A stretch of DNA of 19,443 bases, taken from Clostridia bacterium (GTDB taxonomy: Bacteria; Bacillota; Clostridia; Oscillospirales; CAG-272). A model generated the notes under the pieces. That model had not been told where the DNA came from. It did no database searches and saw nothing but the letters and a program-made list of their open reading frames with translations. The stretch is from assembly GCA_017456685.1 (NCBI GenBank), contig JAFTIV010000091.1, positions 1 through 19,443 of the forward strand, given 5' to 3'. Of this stretch, positions 367-19,443 are shown piece by piece. The first letter of the stretch is position 1, and each line of letters begins with the position of its first letter. Made by a program: the position numbers and the translations under genes.

Positions 367-1926
367 ATGGATTTTCACGGATATTCAGTAGAGCCCAAGT
401 TTATATCGGGCTCAGCTATAAAATGGGTAACTACGGGAAATGGAGAGTTCATTCTCGGTAAAAAGGGTGGCACCACCTACTTTATCAAGAGAAATATAAA
501 CACCCGTTACCCTAACAAAAAGGTACACTCTCCTGCAGTTTTTGCAAAATATCTCAAGACCGCACAGGAGCTTGAAAACAAGCAACAGAGGCTTCGCTCG
601 CTTATGTCGGGGCTTCGTTGGGACAAGGACCTTATCGTTGCCGAGAACGAGAATTTTTGGGACGATAGCAAGTTCACAACGATAACCGTATGCGTGCCCG
701 GAATTATGTCAAACGAGCAGGTCGAAAACGACCTTCCAAAAATCGCCTTTCCAAAGCTCTTGGCTCTTGCTAAGCGCTCAGCCGAGGTTATGGCGCTTCT
801 TCACTCAAAGGGCGTAATTCACGGTGACCTCAAGGAAAAGAACTTTGTTGTCGCTCCAAAGGGCGGAGAATACTACCCCTACCTTATCGACTTTGACTCA
901 GCATACCCCGCTGACGAGGTTCCACCATTTGATGAGATAGGCGGAACACCAGGCTACCAAAGCCCCGAAATTCTTGAATACTACGACAGCGAGGACGACT
1001 CGCTCTCAACAATAATCACCCCCGCAACCGACATTTTCACCCTTGCGCTCGTATGGCATAAGTGGTGGACGGGCGCATTCCCTAACACGGACAAGCCCGT
1101 TGAGGATGTTGCAAGTGCGATAACCGACGGCATTAAGGTAAAGCTTGATGCAAAGTTCGATGTAAAAATAGGCGACACCTGTGGCGCAACTGTCGTTTCG
1201 CTCATCAACTGGATGCTCGCCAAGGACCACACCAAGCGCCCAACGGGTGAGCAGGTTGTTAAGGTTCTAAGCGACCAGCTCGAGGTTCCTACCGAATTCC
1301 ATTGCGGTGGAGATACTCAGCCCTTTGATAGCGAGCTTTGGGACGCACACAAGTCCGCAGGTATGCTTTGCTCAGTTGACGAGCTTAAGAAAAAATATAA
1401 GTCCTTCAAGCGCTTCAATCAGGGAAGTGGCTCAACGGGTCTTAAATATAAGTCAGTCAGCCTAAGCGGAGCAGAGCGCATAATGTCAATTGACGAGCTC
1501 ATTGGCGAGGGCATTGTAGAGTCCAAGGAGGCATCTCTTGACGGTCCTTGGGACGACCACGGCATTGAATACATAAGCGCTAAGGATGTAATTGCAAAGG
1601 GCTATGTGGCTATAAAGCGCGTAGAGCTTGCATACAAAAAGCGCTACATTGTAACAACCCTTGGCGGTAGGCGCTTCGACTGTGGCAAGGATTTCCTTAT
1701 AACAAACGGGCTTGCTACCGAAAAGGTGCTTGAAATTCCATCGGAGACACCTTGGCCAGAGCACGGAACAGCCTATAACCCCGAGGCTATGGCGCTTCTC
1801 AATATTATAAAGATTGAGAGAATGGAAATAGGCGGGGAGAAGAAATATAAGCTCATTCGCGCTGACAGAGTAACCGAGGGAGTTCCCGTAAATAATATGA
1901 AGCTTATGAGGTTGATAACAAAATGA
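367..1926 (+). CDS. Ser/Thr protein kinase-like protein with duplicated C-terminal module
   Basis: 519 residues, probably a cytosolic Hanks-type protein kinase. Visible motifs: a degenerate Gly-rich loop and candidate ATP lysine around GEFILGKKGGTTYFIK (K41); the catalytic loop HGDLKEKNF (152-160, Asp154 and Asn159); DFD in place of DFG (175-177); GTPGYQSPE as the activation/APE segment (193-201); and the late RP pair (291-292). No transmembrane helix or PASTA repeat is seen, so it is not a PrkC-type receptor kinase. Residues about 391-450 and 458-515 are two diverged copies of one unit, each starting PWxxHGxxY, possibly a binding or sensor module. The start is set by AGAGG 6 nt before the ATG. 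The stop overlaps the phosphatase start by four bases (ATGA), implying translational coupling. The kinase fold is confident; the substrate is unknown. Confidence 0.88.
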   Translation: MDFHGYSVEPKFISGSAIKWVTTGNGEFILGKKGGTTYFIKRNINTRYPNKKVHSPAVFAKYLKTAQELENKQQRLRSLMSGLRWDKDLIVAENENFWDDSKFTTITVCVPGIMSNEQVENDLPKIAFPKLLALAKRSAEVMALLHSKGVIHGDLKEKNFVVAPKGGEYYPYLIDFDSAYPADEVPPFDEIGGTPGYQSPEILEYYDSEDDSLSTIITPATDIFTLALVWHKWWTGAFPNTDKPVEDVASAITDGIKVKLDAKFDVKIGDTCGATVVSLINWMLAKDHTKRPTGEQVVKVLSDQLEVPTEFHCGGDTQPFDSELWDAHKSAGMLCSVDELKKKYKSFKRFNQGSGSTGLKYKSVSLSGAERIMSIDELIGEGIVESKEASLDGPWDDHGIEYISAKDVIAKGYVAIKRVELAYKKRYIVTTLGGRRFDCGKDFLITNGLATEKVLEIPSETPWPEHGTAYNPEAMALLNIIKIERMEIGGEKKYKLIRADRVTEGVPVNNMKLMRLITK

Positions 1927-3995
1927 ACGAATTAGCCTTTAAATTTTACTCAATAATCAAAAACGAGGATGTTCCCCCATACTTGGGCGAGGATTTTCTC
2001 GTTTGCGCTGACGGCTTGGGTGGCTCGGGCTCAGTCGTTCACGAAATAGACAGAAAAAAGCACCCCGAGCTAAAGGACGAGCTTTTTGAGAGCGCCTTTG
2101 GCGATATCGGCAGAGAGGAGCTTGCGTTCTGCGCTGACTATATCGACTCTCTCCTTAGCGAAATGGCAGACGAGAAGAGCGACACGAGCGCAATGTGGGG
2201 CTCTCGCATCGCGACTGTTAGATTTGTCTATGTCCTCACAAAAAAGCCAGAGGGAATGGCAGATATTTCAAGCGAGGAGCAAAGACGCGAAATCTCAAAA
2301 TTCGTACACAAGGGTCTTGTTAAGGTAAAAAAGGACTTTGATTTAGATGTTGGTAAGGTGTCGGGAATGCTCCCACTTCCAACAACAATGTGCGCAATGA
2401 GATACGAGGACAAGGGCGACTATGTCCTTGCCGAGAGCATTTGGGCGGGCGACTCTCGCTGTTATATCATCACACCCGAGGGGCTTCGCTGTGCCTCAAT
2501 TGACGACGAGGCATCAAATGGCGGTATTACAAACCTCTTTAATGCGCTTGACGATACAGTAACCACGCTCAACTACAGAAAATTCGAAATTAAGAAGCCC
2601 TGTGTGCTTCTTACCGCAAGTGACGGAATATTTGACACCTTCAAGCCAAATGTGACCTTCTCCTTTGACCCCGAGAACCTCGGTGTAGAGAAGGAAATTC
2701 TTTCTCACATAATGAAGGCGTCCTCACCAAGCGAGGCGGGCACTCTGCTTCACGATTGCTATAATAAGGACCACAGGGGCGACGATTCGACCCTTTGCTT
2801 CGTGCCAATCGGCTTTAAGGACTTTGAGGATGTAAAGGCTACACTAAAGCCACGCGCAGACAAAATCTGCCAGCTTTATAAGGACTATCAGGACAAGTCC
2901 TCACAGCTTTTCTCACTTTCAATTAACGAGGATGATATTGCATCCTATGTGCTTCAAAGAACTCGCGACAAGCTTCCAAAAATCGCTTCTCTTATCGCAG
3001 AGGCATACTCGACAGGCTCAGCCGACCCTGTGATTACAGACGAGCTTCTTGCGCTAATCGAGGAAAGAAAAGCATCTATCGCCTCATCACTCCGTACAAA
3101 GCGCTCGGGCGCGCTTATTGCAAGCATTGACGCATTTGGCGCTAAGCTTCTTGAAAATCCACGCCTTGCTATCATTTCTAAGAAATCGGCAGGGGAGTGT
3201 GTGTTTAATTCAAGCGCAAGCCTCAAAATCATAGGCGACCTTTCCTCAAGAGCACACGACCTTCTCAAGAAGATGGAAACTCTCGAGGCAAGAAGGGAAG
3301 CATACGAGGCTCAGCTCCCAGAGCTAAAGAGGGTAGGCGATGAGCTTAAGCTTAGCTGTCGCACTCTTGCAGACGAGCTTCTTGAGCTCGACACAGACAC
3401 CTCAAAATGGCTTAAGAAAAAGGAGCTATTTAATCTTCTTTTGTTCGCGCTTCGCGGAATTTGCGACGACGAGCTAAGGGCTATTCCTAAGATTAAGGGA
3501 ATTAGCGACACATACAGCGCCCTTATCGCAGGCTCAAACGAGATTATAAAGGACACCTTGAACCTCAAGGGCAAGCTTGAGTATGCTGAAACTCAGGTGG
3601 CTCTTGCTAAGCGCTCATATAAGCACGCGCTTGATACGCTTCTTGCGTTCCTTAAGGCATCACGCGCACATATTGAGGCAAATATCACCCCCGAGGCAAT
3701 TCGCGCCTATAGCCTAACCACCGAGGTTAGCGAGGCTGAGGTTAGAGGTCTTTTAGCAAGCGAGCTTCCAAGCGTGCTTTCCTCAGCGGAGAACACCGAA
3801 AGGGTTGCTCAAATCATTAAAAAGGCGCTACAGGGTGCGCTTAATTCGACATCTGTGATAGAATCTCAATACAACTCCGCAAGGCTCGCGCGCTTTAAGG
3901 ACTACTATAGGTCAATGACCTCTCCAAGAGAGGAAATTGAGGCGCTTGATGCCCAAATCAAGGCAGTAATAGCAGAATATGCTTTAAAGGACTAA
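1923..3995 (+). CDS. PP2C-family Ser/Thr phosphatase with long helical C-terminal half
   Basis: 690 residues. The first ~300 form a PP2C/PPM metal-dependent phosphatase domain: ADGLGGSG (29-36, metal Asp30), GDSRCYII (176-183), LTASDGIFD (230-238, Asp234) and GDDSTLC (286-292). These match the usual VADGMGGH, GDSRxY, SDGLxD and DN/DD motifs in order. Residues ~300-690 are rich in Leu, Glu, Lys and Ala without membrane segments and read as extended helices or coiled coil, with a Glu/Leu-rich stretch around 470-510. PP2C enzymes reverse Ser/Thr phosphorylation, so this protein probably opposes the kinase encoded four overlapping bases upstream (inference from context). The start codon lies inside the kinase stop, with GAGG about 11 nt upstream. 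The tail makes the protein far longer than the ~240-residue stand-alone PP2C. Confidence 0.87.
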   Translation: MNELAFKFYSIIKNEDVPPYLGEDFLVCADGLGGSGSVVHEIDRKKHPELKDELFESAFGDIGREELAFCADYIDSLLSEMADEKSDTSAMWGSRIATVRFVYVLTKKPEGMADISSEEQRREISKFVHKGLVKVKKDFDLDVGKVSGMLPLPTTMCAMRYEDKGDYVLAESIWAGDSRCYIITPEGLRCASIDDEASNGGITNLFNALDDTVTTLNYRKFEIKKPCVLLTASDGIFDTFKPNVTFSFDPENLGVEKEILSHIMKASSPSEAGTLLHDCYNKDHRGDDSTLCFVPIGFKDFEDVKATLKPRADKICQLYKDYQDKSSQLFSLSINEDDIASYVLQRTRDKLPKIASLIAEAYSTGSADPVITDELLALIEERKASIASSLRTKRSGALIASIDAFGAKLLENPRLAIISKKSAGECVFNSSASLKIIGDLSSRAHDLLKKMETLEARREAYEAQLPELKRVGDELKLSCRTLADELLELDTDTSKWLKKKELFNLLLFALRGICDDELRAIPKIKGISDTYSALIAGSNEIIKDTLNLKGKLEYAETQVALAKRSYKHALDTLLAFLKASRAHIEANITPEAIRAYSLTTEVSEAEVRGLLASELPSVLSSAENTERVAQIIKKALQGALNSTSVIESQYNSARLARFKDYYRSMTSPREEIEALDAQIKAVIAEYALKD

Positions 3996-5318: not shown

Positions 5319-5347
5319 TTGACACAGTCACTTTTTTATGATATATT
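5319..5347 (+). promoter_or_regulatory. Sigma-A promoter of the RNA/tRNA-Ser unit
   Basis: A perfect -35 TTGACA (5319-5324), a 17-base spacer and -10 TATATT (5342-5347), one mismatch from consensus. A start is expected near 5353, which coincides with the 5' strand of the closing stem predicted for the downstream RNA. Confidence 0.85.
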
Positions 5348-5349
5348 AA

Positions 5350-5510
5350 GTAGGCAAATAAATGTTTGCACTAAAAGATTTCCAAATATCGGGGTAGAGC
5401 GACAAGTCGCTTATCTCAACGAGCCTTTTGTGAGCAAGCTCCCATCGGCTTTCGTTGGATATACGCAGCGGTTTTAAAGCGGAGCTTTAAATACCATTCT
5501 CTTTGCCTGC
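5350..5510 (+). ncRNA. Structured RNA of unknown family, tandem copy 1
   Basis: Follows the promoter directly. The 5' end GTAGGCAAA (5350-5358) pairs with TTTGCCTGC (5502-5510), and AATG (5361-5364) with CATT (5495-5498), closing a rod of about 160 nt. Inside are a 5' hairpin AGCGAC/GTCGCT (5398-5411), a long apical stem TATC-CAACGA-GCC pairing with GGC-TCGTTG-GATA (5412-5461), and a 3' hairpin TTTAAAGC/GCTTTAAA (5473-5491). Closing stem, central open region with small side hairpins and apical stem recall 6S RNA, but I do not recognise diagnostic 6S sequence. T-box and known riboswitch signatures were not found. Confidence 0.6.
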
Positions 5511-5530
5511 ATATATGAATGCTACAAATA

Positions 5531-5668
5531 AAAAGATTTCCAAGTATCGGGGTAAAGCGACAAGTCGCTTATCTCAACGAGCCTCTTGTGAGCAAGCTCC
5601 CATCGGCTTTCGTTGGATATACGCAGCGGTTTTAAAGCAGAGCTTTAAATACCATTCTCTTTGCCTGC
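5531..5668 (+). ncRNA. Structured RNA of unknown family, tandem copy 2
   Basis: Direct repeat of 5373-5510 at a period of 158 bases; 134 of 138 positions match. The four changes, all transitions, map to positions unpaired in the model for copy 1: before the 5' hairpin (two), in the apical loop, and in the GGA loop of the 3' hairpin. All stems are therefore preserved. No separate promoter is seen between the copies, so it is probably co-transcribed with copy 1 and tRNA-Ser. Confidence 0.6.
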
Positions 5669-5701
5669 TTATTTATTTGGAAATCCAAATAAATAAGCAG
5701 G
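5664..5701 (+). other. Perfect 17-bp hairpin overlapping the tRNA-Ser 5' end
   Basis: CCTGCTTATTTATTTGG (5664-5680), loop AAAT, then its exact complement (5685-5701). The last five bases, GCAGG, are the first five of the tRNA acceptor stem. In the precursor RNA this hairpin and the acceptor stem are mutually exclusive. There is no following U-run, so it is not an intrinsic terminator. Confidence 0.75.
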
Positions 5702-5784
5702 GGTATCGAAGCGGTCACAACGAGGCGGTCTTGAAAACCGTTTGGCCAAAAGCCACGTGGGTTCGAATCCCACCCCCTGCGCCA
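5697..5784 (+). tRNA. tRNA-Ser (anticodon UGA)
   Basis: Acceptor stem GCAGGGG (5697-5703) pairs with CCCCTGC (5774-5780); G is the discriminator and CCA is encoded (5782-5784). The anticodon stem GCGGT/ACCGT carries loop CTTGAAA, giving UGA. The long variable arm has a TTGGC/GCCAC stem, typical of class II serine tRNAs. The T-arm is GTGGG-TTCGAAT-CCCAC. The tRNA reads UCN serine codons. Confidence 0.96.
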
Positions 5785-5822
5785 AAAACAAAAAGGACAC
5801 ATTCCGTGTCCTTTTTGTTTTT
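5784..5822 (+). terminator. Intrinsic terminator of the tRNA-Ser unit
   Basis: AAAAACAAAAAGGACAC (5784-5800), loop ATTCC, then a perfect 17-base complement ending in a T-rich run (5806-5822). The stem begins at the last base of the tRNA CCA. Confidence 0.92.
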
Positions 5823-6131
5823 CTTGGCTTGGGGGTGCTCTCGAACCTCATCTTTGTAAATGCACCGCATTTGCAAATTGGGTGCGGACACGAGCGTCAG
5901 GGCGGTGGGAGCTCGCTCACATAAGCCGAGCGAAGTGCATTGCTAAAAGCAATGCATCCCACAAAATTTACATAGTAAAACGGGTGGGATTCGAAGGGGA
6001 AAGCGTTAAGAAAATCATTCGGGGAATGATTTTTAGCTGGAAGACCGCAGAATTTTGCAAGGCATTTTTTTGCTTTTTTCTCTTTTGTCCTTGCAAAATT
6101 CAAGACCTAATCCCACCCCCTGCGCCAAAAA
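5823..6131. other. Island between two copies of the tRNA-Ser 3' end, with nested hairpins
   Basis: A 23-base segment comprising part of the T-arm, the acceptor 3' strand, CCA and five A's (5766-5788) is repeated exactly at 6109-6131. In addition GGGTGGGATTCGAA at 5982-5995 is the reverse complement of tRNA T-arm sequence and pairs with AATCCCACCC at 6109-6118. That stem encloses hairpins AAAATCATTC/GAATGATTTT (6011-6033) and AATTTTGCAAGG/CCTTGCAAAATT (6051-6100). A further hairpin TGCATTGC/GCAATGCA sits near 5937-5957. No convincing ORF. It resembles the footprint of an element inserted at a tRNA 3' end, or a miniature repeat. Confidence 0.65.
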
Positions 6132-8403: not shown

Positions 8404-8456
8404 TCATAGTGGTTTCTTTTTTGGTAGCTTTTTTCTTTTCCAAAAGAAAAAAGTAC
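8404..8456 (+). repeat. Shared leader hairpin, dnaA copy
   Basis: TCATAGTGGTTTCTTTTTTG leads into a stem of GTA plus CTTTTTTCTTTT (8424-8439, one bulged G) against AAAAGAAAAAAG plus TAC (8442-8456). The dnaA ribosome site AGGGGG follows at 8464-8469. Three further copies precede dnaN, recF and gyrB. Confidence 0.85.
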
Positions 8457-8477
8457 ATAAAACAGGGGGATAAAAAA

Positions 8478-9857
8478 ATGGCGGAATTAAAAAGCATATG
8501 GCTAATGATAGCCGAGATATTAAAAACTAAGCATCCTGACACTGCGTACAATTTATGGTTTGGTGATATGGAGCTAATTTCGCTAACTGCGAAGGAAGCA
8601 ATGTTCACCACAACGACCAACGCGAAAAGAGATGTAATTCTTGATATATTTGCAGACGAAATGGCTGAGGCTACTGAGAGTGTTGTAGGCTTCAAGCCAA
8701 GAATAGTAATAATCTCAACAGAAAACGAGGAAATTGACCTTTCTGCGCCAACGCTTGAAATTTTTTCAAGAGTTGAAAGGGGCGAGGAGAAGAAGCCAGA
8801 AAATGTTGTGATTCCTGACGATTATCGCTCAGACTACACCTTTGAGAACTTTATTACAGGCGCATCAAACGAGTTTGCTTATGCGGCAGCGCGTGCAGTT
8901 GCAGAGAAGGATTTAAACGACCCCGAAACGCTAAGGGCTAATATGTTCAACCCGCTTTTCATTTATGGCCCAAGTGGAGTTGGTAAAACCCACCTTCTTT
9001 ACGCAATCACAAACAAGCTTGCAAGGCGCTTTCCAAACAAGAAAATAATGTACATAAAGGGCGAGGAGTTCACAAATCAGCTCGTTGATGCAATTCGTAA
9101 CAGAACTACCGCTCAATTTAGAGAAAAGCTAAGAACTGTTGATGTCCTGCTTATTGACGATATTCAATTCGTTGCGGGCAGAGAGGCAACTCAGCTTGAG
9201 GTTTTCAACACCTTTAATGCGGTTTATGAGGAAAGAAAGCAAATTATTCTAACCTCCGACCGTCCGCCATACGAGATGCGCACTCTTGAGGAGCGTCTTA
9301 GAACGAGATTTATGTCTGGAATTTTGGCTGATGTTTCCTTGCCAGACTACGACCTTCGCTTAGCAATCCTTCAGCAAAAGGCTAAGGAGCACAACATTTA
9401 TCTCTCAAGCGAGATTATAAAGTACATTGCAGAGAATGTTGTATCATCAATTCGTCAGCTTGAGGGAGTTATCAAAAAGCTCGGCGCTGTTAAATTCCTT
9501 CAAGGCACTGATATAACCCTTGAAAAGGTTAAGGAAATCACAAGGGACTTTTCACAGGCTAAGGAAAATGACTCTAAGAAATTCGAGGAGATAATTGAGG
9601 CAGTTTCCACAAAGTACGGAATTTCCAAGGAAGACATTCTTTCAAGCAAGAGAAACAAGGAAATTGCACTCGCTCGCCATATCTGCGTTTATATTGCGCG
9701 CGAGGTTACCTCACTTTCTCAGGCTCAAATCGCTAAAATCCTTAATCGTGATCGTTCAACCCTCGTTTCGAGCGAAAAGTTCGTTAAGGACAAAATGAAC
9801 GAGGACAACGAGTTCGCTCTCGATATCAAGGAAATTATTCGCAACCTAAACACATAA
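8478..9857 (+). CDS. dnaA: Chromosomal replication initiator DnaA
   Basis: 459 residues from the ATG after AGGGGGATAAAAAA; an in-frame ATG at 8409 would translate the leader hairpin and is rejected. Domain I is at about 1-85, followed by a short linker. The AAA+ domain has Walker A GPSGVGKTH (164-172), Walker B LLIDDIQF (224-231), sensor 1 LTSDRPP (258-264), box VII EERLRTRF (271-278) and sensor 2 SIRQLEG (324-330). Domain IV reads IALARHICVYIARE (396-409), then NRDRSTLV (423-430), where almost all DnaA proteins have RDH[TS]TV: the DNA-contacting His is Arg426. Arg400 matches E. coli Arg399. DnaA-ATP binds DnaA boxes and melts oriC. The long leader suggests post-transcriptional control in addition to any box-mediated regulation. 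Confidence 0.97.
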   Translation: MAELKSIWLMIAEILKTKHPDTAYNLWFGDMELISLTAKEAMFTTTTNAKRDVILDIFADEMAEATESVVGFKPRIVIISTENEEIDLSAPTLEIFSRVERGEEKKPENVVIPDDYRSDYTFENFITGASNEFAYAAARAVAEKDLNDPETLRANMFNPLFIYGPSGVGKTHLLYAITNKLARRFPNKKIMYIKGEEFTNQLVDAIRNRTTAQFREKLRTVDVLLIDDIQFVAGREATQLEVFNTFNAVYEERKQIILTSDRPPYEMRTLEERLRTRFMSGILADVSLPDYDLRLAILQQKAKEHNIYLSSEIIKYIAENVVSSIRQLEGVIKKLGAVKFLQGTDITLEKVKEITRDFSQAKENDSKKFEEIIEAVSTKYGISKEDILSSKRNKEIALARHICVYIAREVTSLSQAQIAKILNRDRSTLVSSEKFVKDKMNEDNEFALDIKEIIRNLNT

Positions 9858-9899
9858 GTCGGTGCGGACCGACAGCCAAGGTGGCGGTATACCACTTGG
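9858..9899. other. Two hairpins just after dnaA
   Basis: GTCGGT-gcgg-ACCGAC starts at the base after the stop codon (9858-9873), followed by CCAAGGTGG/CCACTTGG with one bulge (9876-9899). The first hairpin recurs at about 10459-10474. No U-run follows, so a role as terminator is unproven. Confidence 0.55.
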
Positions 9900-10140
9900 G
9901 AATGAAGAGAGAAGAATGAAAAGTGAAGAATGAAGAGAAAAGGTAGAAAACGCGCTTACGCACTGTTTTAGTTCTTTTCTGCCTGCGGGGGCTTCCCCAC
10001 CATTGAAGAACCTAACCTATCTGTTCTCTTTACGTCGGCTTACAATCCCCCCTGCTACGCTCCCCCCCTTACTCTAAAGGGGGCTTGGGGTTAGAACCTT
10101 GATACTCGCTTCGCTCGTATGCGCATTCCGCATTCCACAT
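9900..10140 (+). repeat. Composite intergenic repeat block, copy 3
   Basis: 7-bp units GAATGAA, GAGAGAA, GAATGAA, AAGTGAA, GAATGAA (9900-9934), the GGTAGAAAACGCGCTTACGC hairpin core, a GC hairpin, AAGAACCTAACCTA with CTGTTCTCT, CCCCCTT/AAAGGGGG hairpin (about 10066-10084), GGTTAGAACCTTGATACTCG and GCGCATTCCGCATTCC. It combines segments seen separately in copies 1 and 2. Confidence 0.8.
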
Positions 10141-10237
10141 TTGCTTGTCATTTTTTCACTTATCAACCAAAAAATTGCCTTATTTGGCAAAAATTCTTGA
10201 TTTTTCTTTTCTTGTTTTCTTAGAAAGAAATAATTTT

Positions 10238-10258
10238 TAGTAGTAGGAGTAGCAGTAG
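10238..10258 (+). promoter_or_regulatory. DnaA-trio-like element
   Basis: Seven trinucleotides in register: TAG, TAG, TAG, GAG, TAG, CAG, TAG. Read 3' to 5' they are the GAT-type trios on which DnaA assembles on single-stranded DNA. AT-rich DNA lies on the left and the G cluster and boxes on the right, the orientation expected for strand opening towards dnaA. Confidence 0.6.
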
Positions 10259-10319
10259 AGGGGTTGGATTTGTTGGAAAACTCCAAATTCTTACTATTTA
10301 AAGGAATTTTACCTCAAAT

Positions 10320-10357
10320 TTATCAACAATCAAAGGTGGACAATCCTTTGTGAATAT
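10320..10357. promoter_or_regulatory. Cluster of three imperfect DnaA boxes
   Basis: TTATCAACA (one mismatch to TTATCCACA), then GGTGGACAA and TGTGAATAT (two mismatches each to TGTGGATAA), at centre spacings of about 15 and 14 bases. The divergence may reflect the altered recognition helix of this DnaA. Confidence 0.5.
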
Positions 10358-10420
10358 GTTGGAATTCTTTTGATAACTCACATTTTTTACTAAAATTTTC
10401 ATTTTTCACTTTTCCACATT

Positions 10421-10564
10421 TTTTCCCCGTTGAAAGAGGGGGAGCCCCCTCGGGCAGGTCGGTGAGGACCGACAGCCAAAATTCGGGCTTGCTTAGTATA
10501 AGCTTTAAGTCACTCACGAAATGGTGGAAAAATGCGAAGTGGCGGGTGAGTGGCACAAACGATG
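10421..10564. other. GC-rich hairpin tract between oriC and the dnaN leader
   Basis: GAGGGGG-ag-CCCCCTC (10436-10451), GTCGGT-gagg-ACCGAC (about 10459-10474; also found after dnaA) and CACTCAC/GTGAGTG enclosing 10511-10552. No gene is supported. The tract could insulate the origin from dnaA transcripts (inference). Confidence 0.5.
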
Positions 10565-10634
10565 TCGGCTATGCCGAATGATGTTACCTTTGGTAAATGA
10601 TGTTGGCTACGCCAAATTATGTTGCCTTCGGCAA
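10565..10634 (+). repeat. Micro-hairpin array in the dnaN leader (ATGATGT spacer)
   Basis: Four perfect 5-bp hairpins: TCGGC-tat-GCCGA (10565-10577), TTACC-ttt-GGTAA (10584-10596), TTGGC-tac-GCCAA (10603-10615) and TTGCC-ttc-GGCAA (10622-10634). They recur every 19 bases with ATGATGT or ATTATGT between them. Stem sequences change in a paired way while length, spacer and 3-nt loops stay fixed. Confidence 0.88.
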
Positions 10635-10663
10635 ACGGAAAGAGTTTACAATTATTTTATTTT

Positions 10664-10715
10664 CATAGTGGTTTCTTTTTTGGTAGCTTTTTTCTTCTCA
10701 TAAAGAAAAAAGTAC
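10664..10715 (+). repeat. Shared leader hairpin, dnaN copy
   Basis: TTCATAGTGGTTTC, then CTTTTTTCTT (10687-10696) pairing with AAGAAAAAAG (10703-10712), flanked by GTA/TAC. The ribosome site AAAGGAG follows. The ACGGAAAGAGTTTA segment before it contains a weak -10-like TACAAT (10647-10652). Confidence 0.85.
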
Positions 10716-10739
10716 AAAAAAACAAAAGGAGTTTAAAAT

Positions 10740-11885
10740 ATGGTAGTAATTTTTGACAGAGACACATTGATGAACGGCTTAACGCCAGCGATGTACACAG
10801 TAGCGGGCAAGAACACGAATGCAAATCTTGAGGGCGTGCATCTTATATGCACAGAGGACGGCAAGGTAGTAATAGAGACTCAAGATATGGAGAAGGGCTT
10901 CCGCACCTCGATTATAGCGAGAGTAGAGGAGGAGGGCGATGTAGTAATCAACGCGAACAAGCTTCTCCAAATAATGAAGGTAATGCCAGCGGGCGACATC
11001 AAGGTTACAGTTGACGAGCGTTTTTCAACGAGAATAGAGTCAGGACTATCACATTTTGACATAAAGGCATTGCCAGGCGACCAGTTCCCACCGCTTCCTG
11101 AGATTTACGGAGAGAGGGGCTTTATAATCCAGCAATACCTCTTTAGAAAGCTTGTAAACAGGGTATATTTTGCGATAGGACAAAACGATGCGCGCCCTGT
11201 ATTTAACGGAGCATACTTTAAGATAACCGACAACAACATGCTACTTGTATCCTGCGACGGAAACAAGCTTGCATACTGTGAGAAGGACATAAGCCTTGAG
11301 AACAGAAGCAAGGACGGAATGAACCTAAATCTTAGATTTATCGTTCCAGGAAGAACTCTATCTGACATTCTCAAGATGACAAAGGACACAGAGGATACAA
11401 TGGAAATTCGTCTTAGCAGAAGATATATTATCTTCCGCTTTGCAAGCTACATGTTCTTCTCAAAGACAATTGACTCCGAATATATCGACTACAACAGAAT
11501 TTTGCCAAGCTCACACAGAGTAAGCACATATCTTGATGCGAGCGCGCTTCGCGGTGCGCTTGAGAGAAGCTCACTAATTGTTGAGGACCGCTTGGCTGGA
11601 AGCATTCGTTCATATGTAAAATTCACCGTAGAGGACGACCTTTTGGTATCAACAATCTCCTCGAACGGAAATGCGTTTGACACAATTCCAATAAGGAAGG
11701 AAAACGACGAGGGCATAGTAATTGGCTTTAACTGCAAGTTTATGCTTGATGCGCTCAAGGTAATTGACGACGGAGAAATTAAAATGTCGTACAACACCCC
11801 ACTTCAGGGCGTGCTTATTGAGCCTCAGGACAAGAGTGATGCGACATACAAGTATTTTGTGATGCCTTTGAAGATGAACAACTAA
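10740..11885 (+). CDS. dnaN: DNA polymerase III sliding clamp (beta subunit)
   Basis: 381 residues, within the normal range for the beta clamp, which forms a ring dimer that tethers polymerase to DNA and also binds other replication proteins. Recognisable features are the central DARPVFNGAYFKI segment (about 146-158), the SYVKFTVEDD stretch of the third domain, and the C-terminal YFVMPLKMNN, equivalent to the conserved VMPMRL end that lies by the peptide-binding pocket. The start has AAAGGAG 7 nt upstream. It follows dnaA after the origin and has its own leader with micro-hairpins and the shared T/A hairpin. No disruption is seen. Confidence 0.96.
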   Translation: MVVIFDRDTLMNGLTPAMYTVAGKNTNANLEGVHLICTEDGKVVIETQDMEKGFRTSIIARVEEEGDVVINANKLLQIMKVMPAGDIKVTVDERFSTRIESGLSHFDIKALPGDQFPPLPEIYGERGFIIQQYLFRKLVNRVYFAIGQNDARPVFNGAYFKITDNNMLLVSCDGNKLAYCEKDISLENRSKDGMNLNLRFIVPGRTLSDILKMTKDTEDTMEIRLSRRYIIFRFASYMFFSKTIDSEYIDYNRILPSSHRVSTYLDASALRGALERSSLIVEDRLAGSIRSYVKFTVEDDLLVSTISSNGNAFDTIPIRKENDEGIVIGFNCKFMLDALKVIDDGEIKMSYNTPLQGVLIEPQDKSDATYKYFVMPLKMNN

Positions 11886-12009
11886 TTTGAGAGCTACTAA
11901 GCGTCGTTATACGGCGTTGCTACTCGTAACCGACCTCGACTATCACAAGATAGCCTTCGTCCGGTTACTTGCCGTTGCGCCTTGTCTAACTTGCTTATTA
12001 ACTCTCAAA
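11886..12009. repeat. Structured intergenic element bounded by TTTGAGAG/CTCTCAAA
   Basis: TTTGAGAG (11886-11893) is complementary to CTCTCAAA (12002-12009). Inside are GTAACCG/CGGTTAC, and a CTAT/ATAG hairpin. The segment AAGCGTCGTTATAC (from about 11899) recurs near 19333 just after the lipoprotein gene. It occupies the place where yaaA is normally found between dnaN and recF; no ORF fills this gap. Confidence 0.6.
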
Positions 12010-12010
12010 T

Positions 12011-12116
12011 GCGAAATGCGAAGTGCGAAATGCGAAATGATAAATCAATATAATTTACACATAGACATTTTGCACTTATGAAATTGCAAGCAAATGCGAA
12101 ATGCGAAATGACAAAT
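12011..12116. repeat. Two 7-bp arrays GCGAAAT
   Basis: GCGAAAT, GCGAAGT, GCGAAAT, GCGAAAT, GATAAAT (12011-12045) and GCGAAAT, GCGAAAT, GACAAAT (12096-12116). These are the reverse-complement form of the ATTTCGC heptamers elsewhere in the window. Confidence 0.85.
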
Positions 12117-12149
12117 CAAGCTTAGATTTTTAAAATAATTATTTTATTT

Positions 12150-12198
12150 TCATAGTGGTTTCTTTTTGGTTCTTTTTCTTCTCCGTAAAGAAAAAGAA
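12150..12198 (+). repeat. Shared leader hairpin, recF copy
   Basis: TCATAGTGGTTTCTTTTTGG, then TTCTTTTTCTT (12170-12180) pairing perfectly with AAGAAAAAGAA (12188-12198). Where the other copies have G-T-A/T-A-C at the base, this copy has T-T/A-A, still paired. Confidence 0.85.
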
Positions 12199-12213
12199 TA
12201 TAAGTAATAAGTA

Positions 12214-13326
12214 ATGATAATAAAAAGCATAGAATTAACAGATTTTAGAAACATAGAGAAGGAAAGGATAGAATTTTCGCCGACGGTGAATGTCATATGT
12301 GGGCGCAACGCGCAGGGCAAGACGAACATTGTTGAGGGAATATATCTATTTGCGCGCGGAAAGAGCTTTAGGGCGATGAAGGACAAGGAGCTAATTCGCT
12401 TTGACAGCTCAGTTGCGTACGCTCTAATGGAATATGAAAAGCGCGCAGAGGGTGTCAAAATAGGTGTACAAATACCGCGCACACAGCCGAAATCGTTTTA
12501 CAAGAACGGGGCGCGAGTACAGCGCACGGCTGACATAATAGGCGAGTTTAGGGCGGTTCTTTTCTGTCCGTCGCATCTTGGAATAATAAGCGACTCACCG
12601 AGTGTGAGGCGTAGCTTTCTCGATGTAGCTATAAGCCAGCTAAAGCCGATATACATCAAGCTTATGACGAGATATAACAGCGTAATGAGCTCGCGAAACG
12701 CGATACTAAAGATGGACGATGCCGAGAGGGCGAAATATCGAGAAACGATAGATTTTTACTCAAGCGAGCTTGCGTCGATTTGCGCGGACATAGCAGATGC
12801 TCGATACGAATATGTAAAGAAGCTTGATTTTTGGGTAAAGAAATTCTTTGAGCAGATGACAGACGGCAGAGAAACGCCAAAAATAAGCTATGAAACGAAC
12901 GCTCAGGGGGCAGATTTTGACACAAGGGCGAGCTTAAAAAACAGATACGCACAGCTCTTGACGGAGAACCTCGACAGAGAAATCCGTTATGGCGCGACTG
13001 CGTACGGAATACACAAGGACGACCTCAAGATAGAGATAAATGGCAAGGATGCGCGTTTATACGCCTCACAGGGGCAACAGCGCTCTCTTGCGCTTGCAAT
13101 GAAGATGGCAGAGGGCGAGATAAGCCGAGAGCATACAGGCGAGTATCCCGTGTTTTTGCTTGACGATGTGCTTAGTGAGCTTGATATTGAGAGGCGAAAA
13201 TATGTGTTATCAAACATAAATAATAGACAGGTTATAATAACCTCCTGCGAGCCAAACTATTTCGACGAAAGCGATGCGAATTTTATTTGGCTAAACGAGG
13301 GCAAGCTAATGCCAAGCGCGGAGTGA
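12214..13326 (+). CDS. recF: DNA replication/repair protein RecF
   Basis: 370 residues, normal length. An SMC/ABC-type ATPase that binds gapped DNA and helps load RecA. It opens with the family N-terminus SIELTDFRNIE and has Walker A GRNAQGKT (30-37), the ABC signature SQGQQRS (285-291), and Walker B VFLLDDVLSELD (313-324). The start is only 16 nt from the shared leader hairpin and has no clear Shine-Dalgarno sequence (AAGTAATAAGTA precedes the ATG), so expression may be low or dependent on the leader. It lies in the standard place before remB and gyrB. Confidence 0.96.
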   Translation: MIIKSIELTDFRNIEKERIEFSPTVNVICGRNAQGKTNIVEGIYLFARGKSFRAMKDKELIRFDSSVAYALMEYEKRAEGVKIGVQIPRTQPKSFYKNGARVQRTADIIGEFRAVLFCPSHLGIISDSPSVRRSFLDVAISQLKPIYIKLMTRYNSVMSSRNAILKMDDAERAKYRETIDFYSSELASICADIADARYEYVKKLDFWVKKFFEQMTDGRETPKISYETNAQGADFDTRASLKNRYAQLLTENLDREIRYGATAYGIHKDDLKIEINGKDARLYASQGQQRSLALAMKMAEGEISREHTGEYPVFLLDDVLSELDIERRKYVLSNINNRQVIITSCEPNYFDESDANFIWLNEGKLMPSAE

Positions 13327-13350
13327 CAGAGCGATGCTCCGCGGTGAAAT

Positions 13351-13427
13351 CCGTCTTGCGACGGTTGAAATCTGCTTTGCAGATGAAATCGCTTCGCGGT
13401 GAAATCCAAAAAGGTTCACTTTTTGGA
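13351..13427 (+). repeat. Micro-hairpin array B (TGAAAT spacers)
   Basis: CCGTC-ttgc-GACGG (13351-13364), TCTGC-ttt-GCAGA (13371-13383), CGC-ttc-GCG (13390-13398) and TCCAAAAAG/CTTTTTGGA (13405-13427), separated by TTGAAA or TGAAAT. It is the inverse of array A and matches the array at the window end. It lies between recF and remB. Confidence 0.88.
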
Positions 13428-13548
13428 CTTGAGTTAGACGGGTTTTGTTTCAACGAGGCTAATTGGCTATTATTTCATATATTAAACATTAAAATTAACA
13501 AAAAGAGCGCGGTGAAAAATGTCTGTGTGTAAGCAGTATTGGCTTATC

Positions 13549-13576
13549 ATTCCGCATTTCGCATTTCGCATTCAAC
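13549..13576. repeat. 7-bp tandem array ATTTCGC before remB
   Basis: ATTCCGC, ATTTCGC, ATTTCGC, ATTCAAC, ending 9 bases before the remB start codon. The space where a ribosome site should be is CATTTAACTT, which is not Shine-Dalgarno-like. Confidence 0.8.
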
Positions 13577-13585
13577 ATTTAACTT

Positions 13586-13825
13586 ATGTATTTATATTTA
13601 GGAAGCAACAAAAGTGTTCGAGGTAGCGAGGTTGAGGCGATATTCGACCTTGATACAGCGACAGTATCTACGCACACGCGCGCGTACCTGCATAATGCGC
13701 AGGCGCGCGGAAAGCTAATAACGCTCGGGCTTGATTTGCCGAAATCCTTTGTTGTTATGAGGGACGGAACGGTGTATCTTTCTCCGCACAACTCAAGCAC
13801 AATAGCGAGCTCAATTTTGGGCTAA
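13586..13825 (+). CDS. remB: RemA/RemB-family regulator (DUF370; YaaB-like)
   Basis: 79 residues, close to the size of B. subtilis RemB (YaaB), which also sits between recF and gyrB. Conserved features: MYLYLGSN at the N-terminus, VEAIFDLD (16-23), PKSFVV (52-57) and YLSPHNSSTI (64-73). RemA/RemB proteins are small DNA-binding regulators that in Bacillus activate matrix genes; the targets here are unknown. No Shine-Dalgarno sequence is visible ahead of the ATG. Confidence 0.9.
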   Translation: MYLYLGSNKSVRGSEVEAIFDLDTATVSTHTRAYLHNAQARGKLITLGLDLPKSFVVMRDGTVYLSPHNSSTIASSILG

Positions 13826-13855
13826 AAAAACTTGTCCGTTTTGTCCGTTTCTGTG

Positions 13856-13864
13856 TGCTATGAT
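13856..13864 (+). promoter_or_regulatory. Putative extended -10 promoter of gyrB
   Basis: TGCTATGAT: a TGN extension followed by TATGAT (13859-13864). No good -35 lies at 17 bases, but repeated TTGTCCGTT motifs (13832 and 13841) are upstream. It is placed between remB and the gyrB leader hairpin. Confidence 0.4.
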
Positions 13865-13879
13865 AGAAATAGATAGAAT

Positions 13880-13930
13880 TTCACAGCGGTTTCTTTTTGC
13901 TATCTTTTTCTTCTCCTAAAGAAAAAGTAG
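13880..13930 (+). repeat. Shared leader hairpin, gyrB copy
   Basis: TTCACAGCGGTTTCTTTTTG, then CTA plus CTTTTTCTT (13900-13912, one bulged T) pairing with AAGAAAAAG plus TAG (13919-13930). The gyrB ribosome site AAGGA is 30 bases downstream, after a small GCC-aaa-GGC hairpin. Confidence 0.85.
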
Positions 13931-13940
13931 AATTAACTAA

Positions 13941-15923
<1,983 letters not shown>

Positions 15924-15944
15924 GGTTTCAATAAACAATGAAAT

Positions 15945-16163
15945 CCGCACCACGGATGCGGTTGAAATCCATCTTCGATGGTTGAAATCGCTTTGCGATG
16001 AAATCTAAAATGAGCCATTTTAGATGAAGATAGAGATAATTAAATAAAAAAGAAAACAGTGCGTAAGCGCGTTTTCTTCCTTAACTTTTCCGCAAGGAAA
16101 AATTTCAATTGCGCACAGCGCAAATTTCAATCGTCGCAGACGAATTTCATCCGCGTTGGCGGA
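15945..16163. repeat. Mirror-paired micro-hairpin arrays C and C' between gyrB and gyrA
   Basis: Array C (TGAAAT spacers): CCGCA/TGCGG (15945-15961), CCATC-ttc-GATGG (15969-15981), TCGC-ttt-GCGA (15988-15998), TCTAAAAT/ATTTTAGA (16004-16024). In the middle a hairpin AAGAAAAC...GTTTTCTT (16050-16078) is the inverse of the composite-block core and resembles a bidirectional terminator. Array C' (ATTTCA spacers): TTTTCC/GGAAAA (16086-16101), TTGCGC/GCGCAA (16109-16123), TCGTC/GACGA (16131-16143), TCCGC/GCGGA (16150-16163). The gyrA ribosome site AGGAGG follows at 16181. No ORF or clear promoter is seen here. Confidence 0.88.
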
Positions 16164-16192
16164 TTTCATTGCGACGACATAGGAGGAGCATA

Positions 16193-18745
16193 ATGAGCGA
16201 AAAAGAACACAATGTGCTTGATTATGAAAATATCGAGCAAATGATAGTAAACCGCAACATTGAGTCAAGAGTAAAGGAAGCGTTTCTTGAGTACTCAATG
16301 AGCGTAATAGTATCTCGTGCGTTGCCAGATGTAAGAGATGGAATGAAGCCTGGACAAAGGCGTGTAATGTACGCGATGTACGAGGACCATCTAACATCAG
16401 ACAAGCCGTTTAGAAAATCGGCTACAACCGTTGGTAATGTGCTTGGTAGATACCATCCACACGGAGACCAAGCGGTATATGGCACAATGGTAAGAATGGC
16501 ACAGCCCTTCTCGCTTCGCCACCCGCTTATTGACGGACACGGAAACTTTGGTAATGTTGACGGTGACGGTGCTGCGGCTTACCGTTATACAGAGGCAAGA
16601 ATGTCCAAGCTCGCAAACGAGCTTATGGCAGATATCGAAAAGGATGTAGTAGATTTCGTTCCTAACTTCGATAACTCAAGAAAGGAGCCAACCGTATTGC
16701 CCTCGCGCTTCCCGAATGTTTTAGTAAACGGAAGCGTAGGAATTGCAGTAGGTATGGCTACAAACATTCCACCTCACAATCTTGGCGAGGTAATTGACGG
16801 AACAATCCATCTAATTGACAATCCCGATGCAAGCGTCGAGGAGATGATGGAATACATTAAGGGACCAGACTTCCCAACCTATGCAACAATTTACGGCAGA
16901 CGCGGACTTATAGAGGCATACACAACAGGTAAGGGACGCATATCAGTTCGCTCAAGGGCTGAGTGTGACGAGGAAAACCACAGAATTATCGTAACCGAAA
17001 TTCCATATATGGTAAACAAGTCACAGCTTATCGAAAAGATTGCCGACCTTCACAAGGAAAAGAAGGTAGAGGGACTCACAGGCATTCGTGACGAGAGCGG
17101 ACGCGCGGGAATGAGAATAGTAATTGAGTGTCGCAGAGATGCAAACCTTCAAGTAATTCTCAATCAGCTTTATAAGAATACACAGCTTCAGGACACCTGT
17201 GCTATGAATATGCTCGTTTTGGTAAACGGAGAGCCAAAGACACTTGGACTTCGCGAGATTTTAAGAGAGTACATTCAGTATCAGGAGCAAATCGTAGAGC
17301 GCAGAACTCGCTTCGAGCTTAAGAAGGCTCAGGCAGAGGCTCATATCTACGAGGGCTATAAGATAGCAATTGACAACATCGACGAGGTAATTTCAATCAT
17401 TCGTGCAAGCGAAAGCACCGCTGTAGCAAAGGAAAAGCTCAAGGAGCGCTTCCTTCTTAGCGAGGAGCAGGCTCAGGCTATTGTTGAAATGACCCTTGGT
17501 AGGCTCTCTGGAATGGAGCGCCAAAAGGTCGAGGAGCGCTTGGCTAAGCTTCACGCAACAATTGCCGAGCTAAATGGCATCTTGGCTGACGAAAACAAGA
17601 TTAAGGAAATTATCAAGACAGAGCTTGAGGAGATTAAGAGAAAGTACGCAGACGCGCGTCGCACCGACATTATTGACAGCGACGACGAGATTGACCTCGA
17701 GGACCTCATTGAGCGCCACGAGTGCGTAATCACCCTCACAAACTCAGGCTACATTAAGAGAATTCCTGCCGACACCTACGAGGCACAGCACAGAGGTGGT
17801 AAGGGTCTTGTTGCAATGGGCACCAAGGAAGAGGACTTTATCGAAAATATTCTTGTTGCAAATTCACACGCACACCTTCTTATGTTTACTGACAATGGTA
17901 AGATATTCGTAAGAAAGGTATATAGAATACCCGAAAGCTCAAGAACCGCTAAGGGTGCAAACCTTATCAATATCATAGAGATTGAAAAGGGCGAGAAGGT
18001 AACCGCAATGGTTGCGCTTGAGAGCTTCGAGGACAACGAGTACCTCGTAATGGTAACAAGAAACGGTGTTATCAAGAGAACTCGCGTTAAGGAGTACGAG
18101 TACCAGCGCAAGGGCGGTAAGATTGCAATCAACCTTGACGAGGGTGACGAGCTTATCTTTGTTGGCCACACTAAGGGAGATAGCGATATTATCATCGCAT
18201 CAAAGAATGGTCAGGGCGTTCGCTTTAACGAGGACAAGGTTACAATCGTTGGTAGAACCGCACGCGGAGTTCGCGGTATTGAGCTTCGTGGTGAGGACAA
18301 GGTATGCGGTGCGGTTATTGTTGATGAGACAAGGAAGCTTCTTACAGTTACAGAAAACGGCTTTGGAAAGAGAAGCGAGTTTAGTGACTTTGAGGCGAGA
18401 AACCGTGGCATATTCGGTGTTCGTGCACACAATGTCACAGATAAGACAGGCGCCCTTGCAACAATCGGCGCAGTTGACGAGAGTGAGGACATTATGGCAA
18501 TCACCGATGCAGGTGTTGTTATTAGAACTCCGGTTAGCGAGGTTCCTGTTTATAATAGAAGCGCATCAGGCGTACGCGTAATGCGTATTGCTGAGGGCAC
18601 TAAGGTTGCAAAAATGACCTTTACCGATGCAGTTGATGACGAGGACGAGGTAGCAGAGACACCCGAGGGAGAGGAAGCGCCAGCAACCGATACCCCCGCA
18701 ACCGATAATCCCGTAGCACCAGAAACACCAGAGGGTGCTGAATAA
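16193..18745 (+). CDS. gyrA: DNA gyrase subunit A
   Basis: 850 residues from the ATG 6 nt after a perfect AGGAGG; an in-frame ATG at 16109 would translate the hairpin array and is rejected. GyrA cuts and rejoins DNA: the catalytic pair is Arg131-Tyr132 in AAAYRYTEARM. The GyrA box QHRGGKG (532-538) at the start of the C-terminal beta-pinwheel marks a wrapping gyrase rather than ParC, and pinwheel blades follow to about 810. In the quinolone region GDQAVYGTMV (91-100), Gln93 and Gly97 replace the usual Ser83 and Asp87 (E. coli numbers). The tail (~813-850) is acidic and rich in Glu, Thr and Pro, with ATDTPATDNP-type repetition. The stop overlaps the start of the following lipoprotein gene. Confidence 0.97.
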   Translation: MSEKEHNVLDYENIEQMIVNRNIESRVKEAFLEYSMSVIVSRALPDVRDGMKPGQRRVMYAMYEDHLTSDKPFRKSATTVGNVLGRYHPHGDQAVYGTMVRMAQPFSLRHPLIDGHGNFGNVDGDGAAAYRYTEARMSKLANELMADIEKDVVDFVPNFDNSRKEPTVLPSRFPNVLVNGSVGIAVGMATNIPPHNLGEVIDGTIHLIDNPDASVEEMMEYIKGPDFPTYATIYGRRGLIEAYTTGKGRISVRSRAECDEENHRIIVTEIPYMVNKSQLIEKIADLHKEKKVEGLTGIRDESGRAGMRIVIECRRDANLQVILNQLYKNTQLQDTCAMNMLVLVNGEPKTLGLREILREYIQYQEQIVERRTRFELKKAQAEAHIYEGYKIAIDNIDEVISIIRASESTAVAKEKLKERFLLSEEQAQAIVEMTLGRLSGMERQKVEERLAKLHATIAELNGILADENKIKEIIKTELEEIKRKYADARRTDIIDSDDEIDLEDLIERHECVITLTNSGYIKRIPADTYEAQHRGGKGLVAMGTKEEDFIENILVANSHAHLLMFTDNGKIFVRKVYRIPESSRTAKGANLINIIEIEKGEKVTAMVALESFEDNEYLVMVTRNGVIKRTRVKEYEYQRKGGKIAINLDEGDELIFVGHTKGDSDIIIASKNGQGVRFNEDKVTIVGRTARGVRGIELRGEDKVCGAVIVDETRKLLTVTENGFGKRSEFSDFEARNRGIFGVRAHNVTDKTGALATIGAVDESEDIMAITDAGVVIRTPVSEVPVYNRSASGVRVMRIAEGTKVAKMTFTDAVDDEDEVAETPEGEEAPATDTPATDNPVAPETPEGAE

Positions 18746-19330: not shown

Positions 19331-19443
19331 AATAAGCGTCGTTATACTGTGTTGCTGGCAGAGCAAAGCTCTGCAATGAAATCCGTCTTGCGACGGTTGA
19401 AATCTGCTTTGCAGATGAAATCGCTTCGCGGTGAAATCCAAAA
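19331..19443 (+). repeat. Dispersed repeat and micro-hairpin array D (runs off the window)
   Basis: AATAAGCGTCGTTATAC (from 19331) matches the element after dnaN. It is followed by GCAGAGC-aaa-GCTCTGC (19358-19374), CCGTC-ttgc-GACGG (19383-19396), TCTGC-ttt-GCAGA (19403-19415) and CGC-ttc-GCG (19422-19430), with TGAAAT spacers. It is the inverse of array A and the same as array B. The last bases, TCCAAAA, begin the fifth stem, cut by the window edge. Confidence 0.88.

Follow-up and report, generated by a model that had tools for sequence, protein, structure and literature searches.

The locus around tRNA-Ser(UGA)

The window, by which we mean the whole 19,443-nt stretch of Clostridia bacterium DNA that was analysed (assembly GCA_017456685.1, contig JAFTIV010000091.1), contains a tRNA-Ser(UGA) gene that is preceded by two tandem copies of a hairpin-rich unit and followed by a third copy on the opposite strand. 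The features of the locus are given below; core hairpins were scored with R1, a covariance model of the central hairpin that was built from 19 copies.

5319–5347, plus strand: promoter of tRNA-Ser, TTGACA-17-TATATT, upstream of both units
5390–5510, plus strand: element unit 1 (boundaries by inspection)
5408–5473, plus strand: core hairpin of unit 1 (R1, 74.5 bits)
5548–5681, plus strand: element unit 2, with terminal CCTGCTTATTTATTTGGA, 15 nt from the tRNA (boundaries by inspection)
5566–5631, plus strand: core hairpin of unit 2 (R1, 74.4 bits)
5664–5701, plus strand: 18-bp perfect inverted repeat of the end of unit 2 and the tRNA leader plus the first 5 nt of tRNA-Ser
5697–5784, plus strand: tRNA-Ser(UGA) (Rfam tRNA match and tRNA call)
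5784–5822, plus strand: terminator-like hairpin of the tRNA, 17-bp arms, GGACAC..GTGTCC and a T run (read by eye)
5824–5970, minus strand: downstream element (boundaries by inspection)
5877–5942, minus strand: core hairpin of the downstream element, directed at the tRNA (R1, 50.1 bits)
5982–6131, no strand assigned: second hairpin family between inverted tRNA-3′-end copies (GGGTGGGATTCGAA at 5982–5995, AATCCCACCCCCTGCGCCAAAAA at 6109–6131)

The tandem copies, at 5373–5514 and 5531–5672, are 142 nt each, have a spacing of 158 and are 96% identical. The first-pass annotation had described two 138-bp copies with a period of 158 and four differences; this is confirmed, and the repeat actually extends to 142 nt with a fifth difference. 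The four differences within the first 138 nt (5386, 5397, 5427 and 5481) had all been assigned to unpaired segments of the copy 1 fold, which is correct for three of them, while position 5397 (G to A) is paired in that fold and its change leaves the pair intact, G-U becoming A-U.

Unit 1 is composed, in order, of a mimic of the tRNA 5′ end (CGGGGTA), hairpin hp1, the core hairpin, ACGCAGCGG, hairpin hp2 (5473–5491) and the inverted tRNA 5′ end, whose last letters are CCTGC. The downstream element runs from an antisense mimic of the tRNA 3′ end through hp2, the minus-strand core and hp1 to a partial tRNA-3′-end copy (ATCCCAC). With this third copy (minus strand, 5877–5942) and a related hairpin insertion at about 5982–6131, the feature is larger than the interval 5319–5701 to which it was originally assigned. 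The hairpin at 5784–5822 is absent from the program-made terminator list of the region. The second hairpin family is inserted at the T-loop of an inverted tRNA-3′-end copy, has the apex hairpin ATTTTGCAAGG..CCTTGCAAAAT in the window and also occurs in five other loci (L008, L113, L159, L171 and L173).

Elsewhere in the window, translations read by eye indicate an origin-type gene order, dnaA, dnaN, recF, gyrB and gyrA, at 8409–18745, and a protein kinase gene with a PP2C-like phosphatase gene at 367–3995. Gut-1 RNA (RF01706) is found near both contig ends, at 232–300 on the minus strand and 19374–19442 on the plus strand, with equal scores and opposite orientation; the assembly may have broken at this repeat.

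The promoter is of the sigma-70 type, matches the consensus at 11/12 and carries a TG extension, in agreement with the earlier call of a strong promoter ahead of a pair that lies upstream of tRNA-Ser. The region contains 2 promoter-like sites, compared to 1.3 in shuffles. Promoter-like matches are present upstream of tRNA-Ser in 20 of 24 relatives' loci, where the distance from the −10 box to tRNA-Ser ranges from 62 to 391 (349 in the window); one tRNA-Ser locus has an additional promoter-like match at distance 504. As judged from this arrangement, the window pair is very probably transcribed from the promoter, though probably as no more than the 5′ leader of pre-tRNA-Ser, and its copies would be passengers in that leader that are cut off by RNase P.

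Distribution, polarity and tRNA-end copies of the element

A DNA search with the central part of copy 1 matched 11 of 57 genomes, its own included, all from one genus, and a tRNA gene was present in 14 of the 16 loci fetched from the other genomes (two of the 16 overlap). Allowing at most one mismatch, the hairpin word occurred in 25 of 29 genomes of the genus and a reversed control word in 2/29. R1 matched at least 26 of these 29 draft assemblies, including all 11 of the most complete, and its counts are lower bounds because 150 candidates were scored per genome. With filters stricter than those of the genus search, R1 identified the element in 15 of 146 genomes of a family sample (9 of 71 genera, the own genus included with three of the 15) and in 5 of 295 genomes of an order sample, all five in the same family. 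In the genomes searched, the element occurs in one family of uncultured Clostridia. The nearest named records that carry it are uncultured Clostridia or Oscillospiraceae, and two of the three (L171 and L172) are labelled as ruminant gut. Elements of this kind were not found described in the titles and abstract openings of the literature searched.

A blastn search of 5350–5700 against phages and plasmids gave no match. A search of IMG/VR for one exact 27-nt word, taken from a variant of the core that is common, returned a single contig (L296), where a core lies beside a phage-like gene. In L296 (780–806) this core, with a terminator and a TGGCGCAG remnant, adjoins a gene that by eye is terminase-like, and prophages may also enter at such tRNA ends.

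When 80 regions surrounding R1 hits were searched together with the window and 27 more loci, 150 copies were obtained, 147 of them distinct. Ninety-seven of the 147 have a tRNA gene no more than 500 bp away, with a median core-tRNA distance of 89 bp, and these come from 74 loci in 22 genomes. In all 97, the core strand is directed at the tRNA. Fifteen are upstream on the tRNA strand, exclusively at tRNA-Ser(UGA) and tRNA-Ser(CGA). The remaining 82 sit downstream, on the strand opposite to the tRNA, which in these cases is one for Arg, Gln, Glu, Ser, Tyr, Met or Leu. Of the 50 copies with no tRNA within 500 bp, six have one farther away in the locus, with identical polarity, and the loci of the other 44 contain no tRNA; in 19 of the 50 the downstream sequence covers less than 500 bp, and among the remainder several of those inspected carry a terminator together with a truncated tRNA-like end. 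Among loci from outside the genus, eight of ten have the same polarity, tRNA-Cys now being included, and the other two lack a tRNA. None of 18 control loci fetched for recombinases or transposases contains a tRNA. Two tRNA-Ser loci deviate: in L321 the unit is missing, and L315 has just a short hairpin.

On its core strand, a typical element reads: the end of the adjacent tRNA, hp1, the core hairpin, CGAA or CGCA with the next few nucleotides of that tRNA, hp2, and an inverted copy of the tRNA end; a terminator or leader follows, and then the real, intact tRNA end. In the downstream class, the own tRNA was the best match of the 3′ flank in 51 of 82 copies and of the 5′ flank in 47 of 82 (5.9 expected in each case). 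In the upstream class the corresponding numbers were 5/15 and 4/15 (1.2 expected), both window units being among the misses. The four nucleotides after the CGAA-like word agreed with the own tRNA in 44 of the 72 scored downstream copies (10 of the 82 were not scored), compared to 16% of control pairs, and in 7/15 upstream copies, compared to 0 in the control. The test is post hoc, as the length of four was picked after seeing that the similarity stops there. Over eight nucleotides, downstream copies had 3.74 matches to their own tRNA and 2.89 to others, and the own tRNA was best in just 8/74; for upstream copies it was best in 15/15, where one other type was compared. The hairpin is therefore located next to a CGAA-like motif within a copy of the tRNA end that folds back, and the element amounts to an inverted tRNA-end duplication that contains a hairpin at such a motif.

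Within the tRNAs examined, the CGAA-like motif is part of the T-loop read antisense, at the 3′ end. On the sense strand, CGAA occurs within the first 25 nucleotides of 7/7 Ser(UGA), 2/2 Ser(CGA) and 2/4 Ser(GCU) sequences and in none of 31 other distinct tRNA sequences. That upstream sense-strand copies are found only at Ser(UGA) and Ser(CGA) fits the presence of CGAA near their 5′ ends; Ser(GCU) is an exception, as two of four sequences have CGAA near the 5′ end, yet no upstream copy was found. Antisense TCGAA is present near the 3′ end of most tRNA types, with Tyr (0/3) and Leu(CAG) (0/1) lacking it. The T-loops of tRNA-Tyr and of the printed tRNA-Gln(UUG) read TCGGACC although the element occurs at both, and the motif rule is therefore a loose one.

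For 35 of 83 cores (6.5 expected), the nearest relative came from a different genome and the same tRNA type; for 41 (73.1 expected), both genome and tRNA were different, and for 7 (3.4 expected), the relative was at a different tRNA of one and the same genome. Lineages of the element thus stay largely with one tRNA type, and some have passed to another. The frequency of relatives at the same tRNA type shows tRNA-bound descent more than free jumping and counts against a mobile reading.

Two further observations concern tRNA ends. In seven loci (L297–L302 and L304), AACCTAAACCGAAC and a near-inverted copy of it form a terminator-like stem, in several cases directly behind a tRNA 3′ end. Halves of tRNA-Ser(UGA) (nucleotides 1–40 or 32–88) occur near or apart from full copies (G027:C30:32590-33037, G010:C27:30242-30511, G009:C32, G008:C31 and G005:C6) and look as if integrases had split the gene at the anticodon loop.

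Covariation, wobble pairs and the RNA readings

Among 126 distinct copies of the core hairpin, 413 cells were changed on both sides of a pair, compared to 137 in shuffles, and the covariation score was 0.538, compared to 0.193; none of 500 shuffles reached either value. Change on both sides was seen in all 16 core pairs, as it was in 20 of the 500 shuffles, and in 13 of the 16 in the first alignment; the second alignment favours structure because it was fitted to structure. When the partners were slid by one column or more, at most 49% remained paired, down from 86%. Hairpins hp1 and hp2, with 115 and 119 distinct sequences, reached a pairing score of 6 or more in 76 and 102 cases, compared to 4 and 5 in shuffles. 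Their pairs are Watson-Crick in 702/709 and 949/979 cases, respectively, in a hairpin search that itself favours such pairs.

If the core strand acted as RNA, G-U would be expected to exceed A-C among imperfect pairs. Over all 16 core pairs there are 145 G-U and 54 A-C. One inner pair is U-G in 76 of the 126 sequences (A2 columns 29 and 85), and leaving it out gives 69 G-U and 53 A-C; when the three outermost pairs are also omitted, 23 G-U remain against 30 A-C, the four pairs set aside having been picked after the counts were seen. The ratio of G-U to A-C is 1:1 in hp1 and 2:19 in hp2, where the A-C bias corresponds to G-T on the other strand. As there is no clear G-U excess except at one pair, selection as RNA on the core strand is unsupported, and the pattern looks more like that of palindromes kept as DNA than of RNA. 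The inner U-G pair and the A-C bias of hp2 both hint at strand-specific folding. An advocate of RNA could use the all-pair excess of 145 to 54, together with the U-G pair, against the DNA reading.

The first-pass annotation saw in the pair a new structured non-coding RNA, either 6S-like or of another class, a view to which we now give very little credence. It has in its favour the strong promoter, the covariation, the one inner pair held as U-G in 76/126 sequences and the lack of an Rfam match, the last as had been stated: at gathering thresholds Rfam 15 returned only tRNA and Gut-1 for the whole window and none over the pair, and at E up to 10 no family came near its gathering score over the units. 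The pair resembles 6S RNA (RF00013) as a hairpin-rich, RNA-size unit behind a strong promoter, but RF00013 is absent from the covariance-model match lists, both at the gathering threshold and at E up to 10, and a 6S-like RNA was rejected on this ground. The predicted closing stem (AGGCAAA/TTTGCCT) fails as well: it folds in copy 1 and not in copy 2, and its core halves, GGCAA..TTGCC, occur together at only two tRNA-Ser loci, one of them that of the window, out of the 20 that have a promoter-like match. In L315, AGGCAAA does follow the promoter, yet only the short hairpin is there. Comparison of homologues upholds a strongly covarying core hairpin and not a conserved closing stem. The copy 1 fold is weak (z −1.53, equalled or bettered by 9 of 200 shuffles), and the 176 nt around copy 2 give a z of −3.84. 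Also against an RNA class are the dispersal of the element at tRNA genes in both strand relations and the lack of a wobble excess in the remaining core pairs. What stands of the structured-RNA claim is that the feature is structured and conserved with compensatory changes; it mostly lies opposite the tRNA strand, and the expected G-U excess is missing apart from one pair. The pair is probably not a 6S-like RNA and the family is probably not RNA.

An improbable alternative is that the element is a leader or trailer RNA that controls tRNA maturation, its inverted copy pairing with either the decoy or the real tRNA end. The position between the promoter and tRNA-Ser, the 18-bp repeat that connects unit 2 with the tRNA 5′ end, and the presence of decoy, inverted copy and real end on both sides of the tRNA would suit such a role. 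However, the core is opposite the tRNA strand in 82 of 97 copies, and a transcript of the tRNA strand would therefore carry the complement of the core. Moreover, leaving aside the four pairs named above, G-T versus A-C counts give the core strand no advantage (23:30 in the core, 2:19 in hp2), and the tRNA-Ser loci L321 and L315 have no unit and only a short hairpin, respectively.

Accessory-gene cassettes and the nature of the element

Twelve longer stretches were fetched, chosen mostly because they hold two or more copies of the element. In eight of the 12 (L264–L266, L269, L270 and L272–L274), at least two copies in the same orientation flank genes, so that, as in integrons, cassettes are separated by same-orientation sites in 8/12 stretches chosen for paired copies. 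The order in L270, for example, is tRNA-Glu, element, one gene, element, two genes, element. Of 20 proteins encoded between copies, 14 scored above a Pfam cut-off. The cargo comprises an AlwI-type endonuclease with a D12 methyltransferase and a protein kinase; C5 and D12 methyltransferases with a rhamnosidase; AraC with GH2; and Abi_2, an HTH_3 regulator, a MerR regulator, NAGLU, PGA_cap and DUF4379. PADLOC, which matched 8 of 10 scanned proteins, backs type II restriction-modification systems and AbiD.

In two pairs of related genomes, the sequence similarity breaks off at the element. L082 (G003) and L269 (G025) are 91.2% identical over 1255 bp through a gene, tRNA-Glu and the element, the similarity ending about 21 nt past the core, and L093 (G006) and L269 are 92.6% identical over 1240 bp, from inside a core through part of the NAGLU gene. 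In places, the element probably delimits blocks of accessory genes, those for restriction enzymes among them.

Taken together, our data lead us to favour, with moderate confidence, the view that the window pair represents two copies of a palindromic, DNA-level repeat that is probably mobile, lies at tRNA ends and serves as a junction for tRNA-anchored cassettes. We infer mobility and mechanism from sequence: the element would be a mobile or recombinogenic junction, an intact tRNA end would be renewed after insertion, and accessory-gene cassettes would accumulate beside tRNA genes through recombination between copies.

A more specific proposal, which we regard as tentative, is a new kind of cassette system in which tRNA genes are the anchors, the folded hairpin within the fold-back copy is the recombination site and a yet-unrecognised enzyme acts on it. 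Each insertion would then renew the tRNA end and the terminator, and successive rounds would stack defence and glycosidase cassettes in one orientation. A candidate enzyme was sought among several families in the 29 genus genomes. Tyrosine recombinase PF00589 is common to 27/29, mostly as a protein of about 340 amino acids; the two examples inspected by eye look Xer-like and no link to the element was seen, so this shared recombinase was rejected as mover. Serine recombinases (PF00239) are found in 21/29 genomes and adjoin a tRNA or the element in L284, L286, L288 and L289. A link through AACCTAAACCGAACC, taken as the attachment arm of a large serine recombinase, was dropped: the word had 11 exact matches compared to 10 for a reversed control, and it is part of a terminator-like stem behind tRNA genes. 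In three of these genomes a conserved non-coding stretch with several hairpins (L286, about 9880–10200; L288, about 1400–1850; L289, about 1460–1760) is located between the tRNA or element and the end of the large serine recombinase gene.

Several known systems share parts of this picture. REP/BIME palindromes, which are associated with RAYT transposases, are short, imperfect and dispersed, with structure conserved above sequence, and the present element is likewise a short, imperfect, dispersed palindrome that is more conserved in structure than in sequence. In contrast to them, it is concentrated at tRNA ends and its own ends are target-specific; moreover, the Y1 transposase PF01797 occurs in 9/29 genomes while the element occurs in 26/29, which makes REP/RAYT weak as a mover. 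Rickettsia palindromic elements and MITEs are also small palindromic insertions, some of them within RNA genes, whereas the element described here leaves the tRNA end intact and is located at cassette borders.

Integron attC arrays provide a closer parallel. The element, too, is folded and structurally conserved, has one orientation and parts accessory-gene cassettes at an anchored end. A true integron, with the element as attC and tRNA genes as attI, would account for arrays of accessory genes with same-orientation folded sites between them, but we consider it extremely unlikely. The attC consensus half-sites are RYYYAAC (R″) and GTTRRRY (R′); GTTRRRY and RYYYAAC were found in 9 and 1 of 126 distinct cores, respectively, and both together in none. 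The integron integrase TIGR02249 was above cut-off in 0 of the 29 genomes, which are incomplete drafts. The anchor also differs, being a tRNA gene that is copied by the site. The integron reading was rejected on the integrase and half-site counts.

Integrative elements anchored at tRNA genes, such as prophages, ICEs and tycheposons, use tRNA 3′ ends, leave distal copies of the tRNA end and carry defence and metabolic cargo. The element shares all three features, with its location at tRNA ends and its far-side tRNA-end copies. It differs in being an inverted tRNA-end copy that has taken up a conserved hairpin, in occurring in tandem with no cargo between copies, and in that no integrase is linked with it.

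It is also conceivable, although we think it rather unlikely, that replication template switching at tRNA genes generates the element, tRNA ends being repeatedly copied in inverted form and quasi-palindromes perfected. The cargo would come in with prophages or ICEs that integrate at tRNA genes in the ordinary way, and the element would have neither a dedicated enzyme nor a function. The divergence in sequence of hp1 and hp2, which are nonetheless nearly all Watson-Crick (702/709 and 949/979), is as such a process would predict, the second hairpin family in the window has the same fold-back layout, and ordinary integrases and split tRNA-Ser halves are present in the genomes. Template switching leaves unexplained, however, a single core hairpin with conserved loops and a single polarity at tRNAs of eight amino-acid identities in 9/71 genera.

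If the element is indeed a repeat that acts as DNA, it would be a case in which strong covariation marks a DNA-level repeat and not an RNA, and would call for care when RNAs are sought by covariation; a simple check that may tell the two apart is to compare the numbers of G-U and A-C on each strand. For the organisms, a DNA-level junction of this kind would mean that uncultured gut Clostridia have a widespread, unnamed route for stacking accessory genes, namely restriction-modification, abortive infection and glycosidase genes, at their tRNA genes, with a structural site that is easily searched for.
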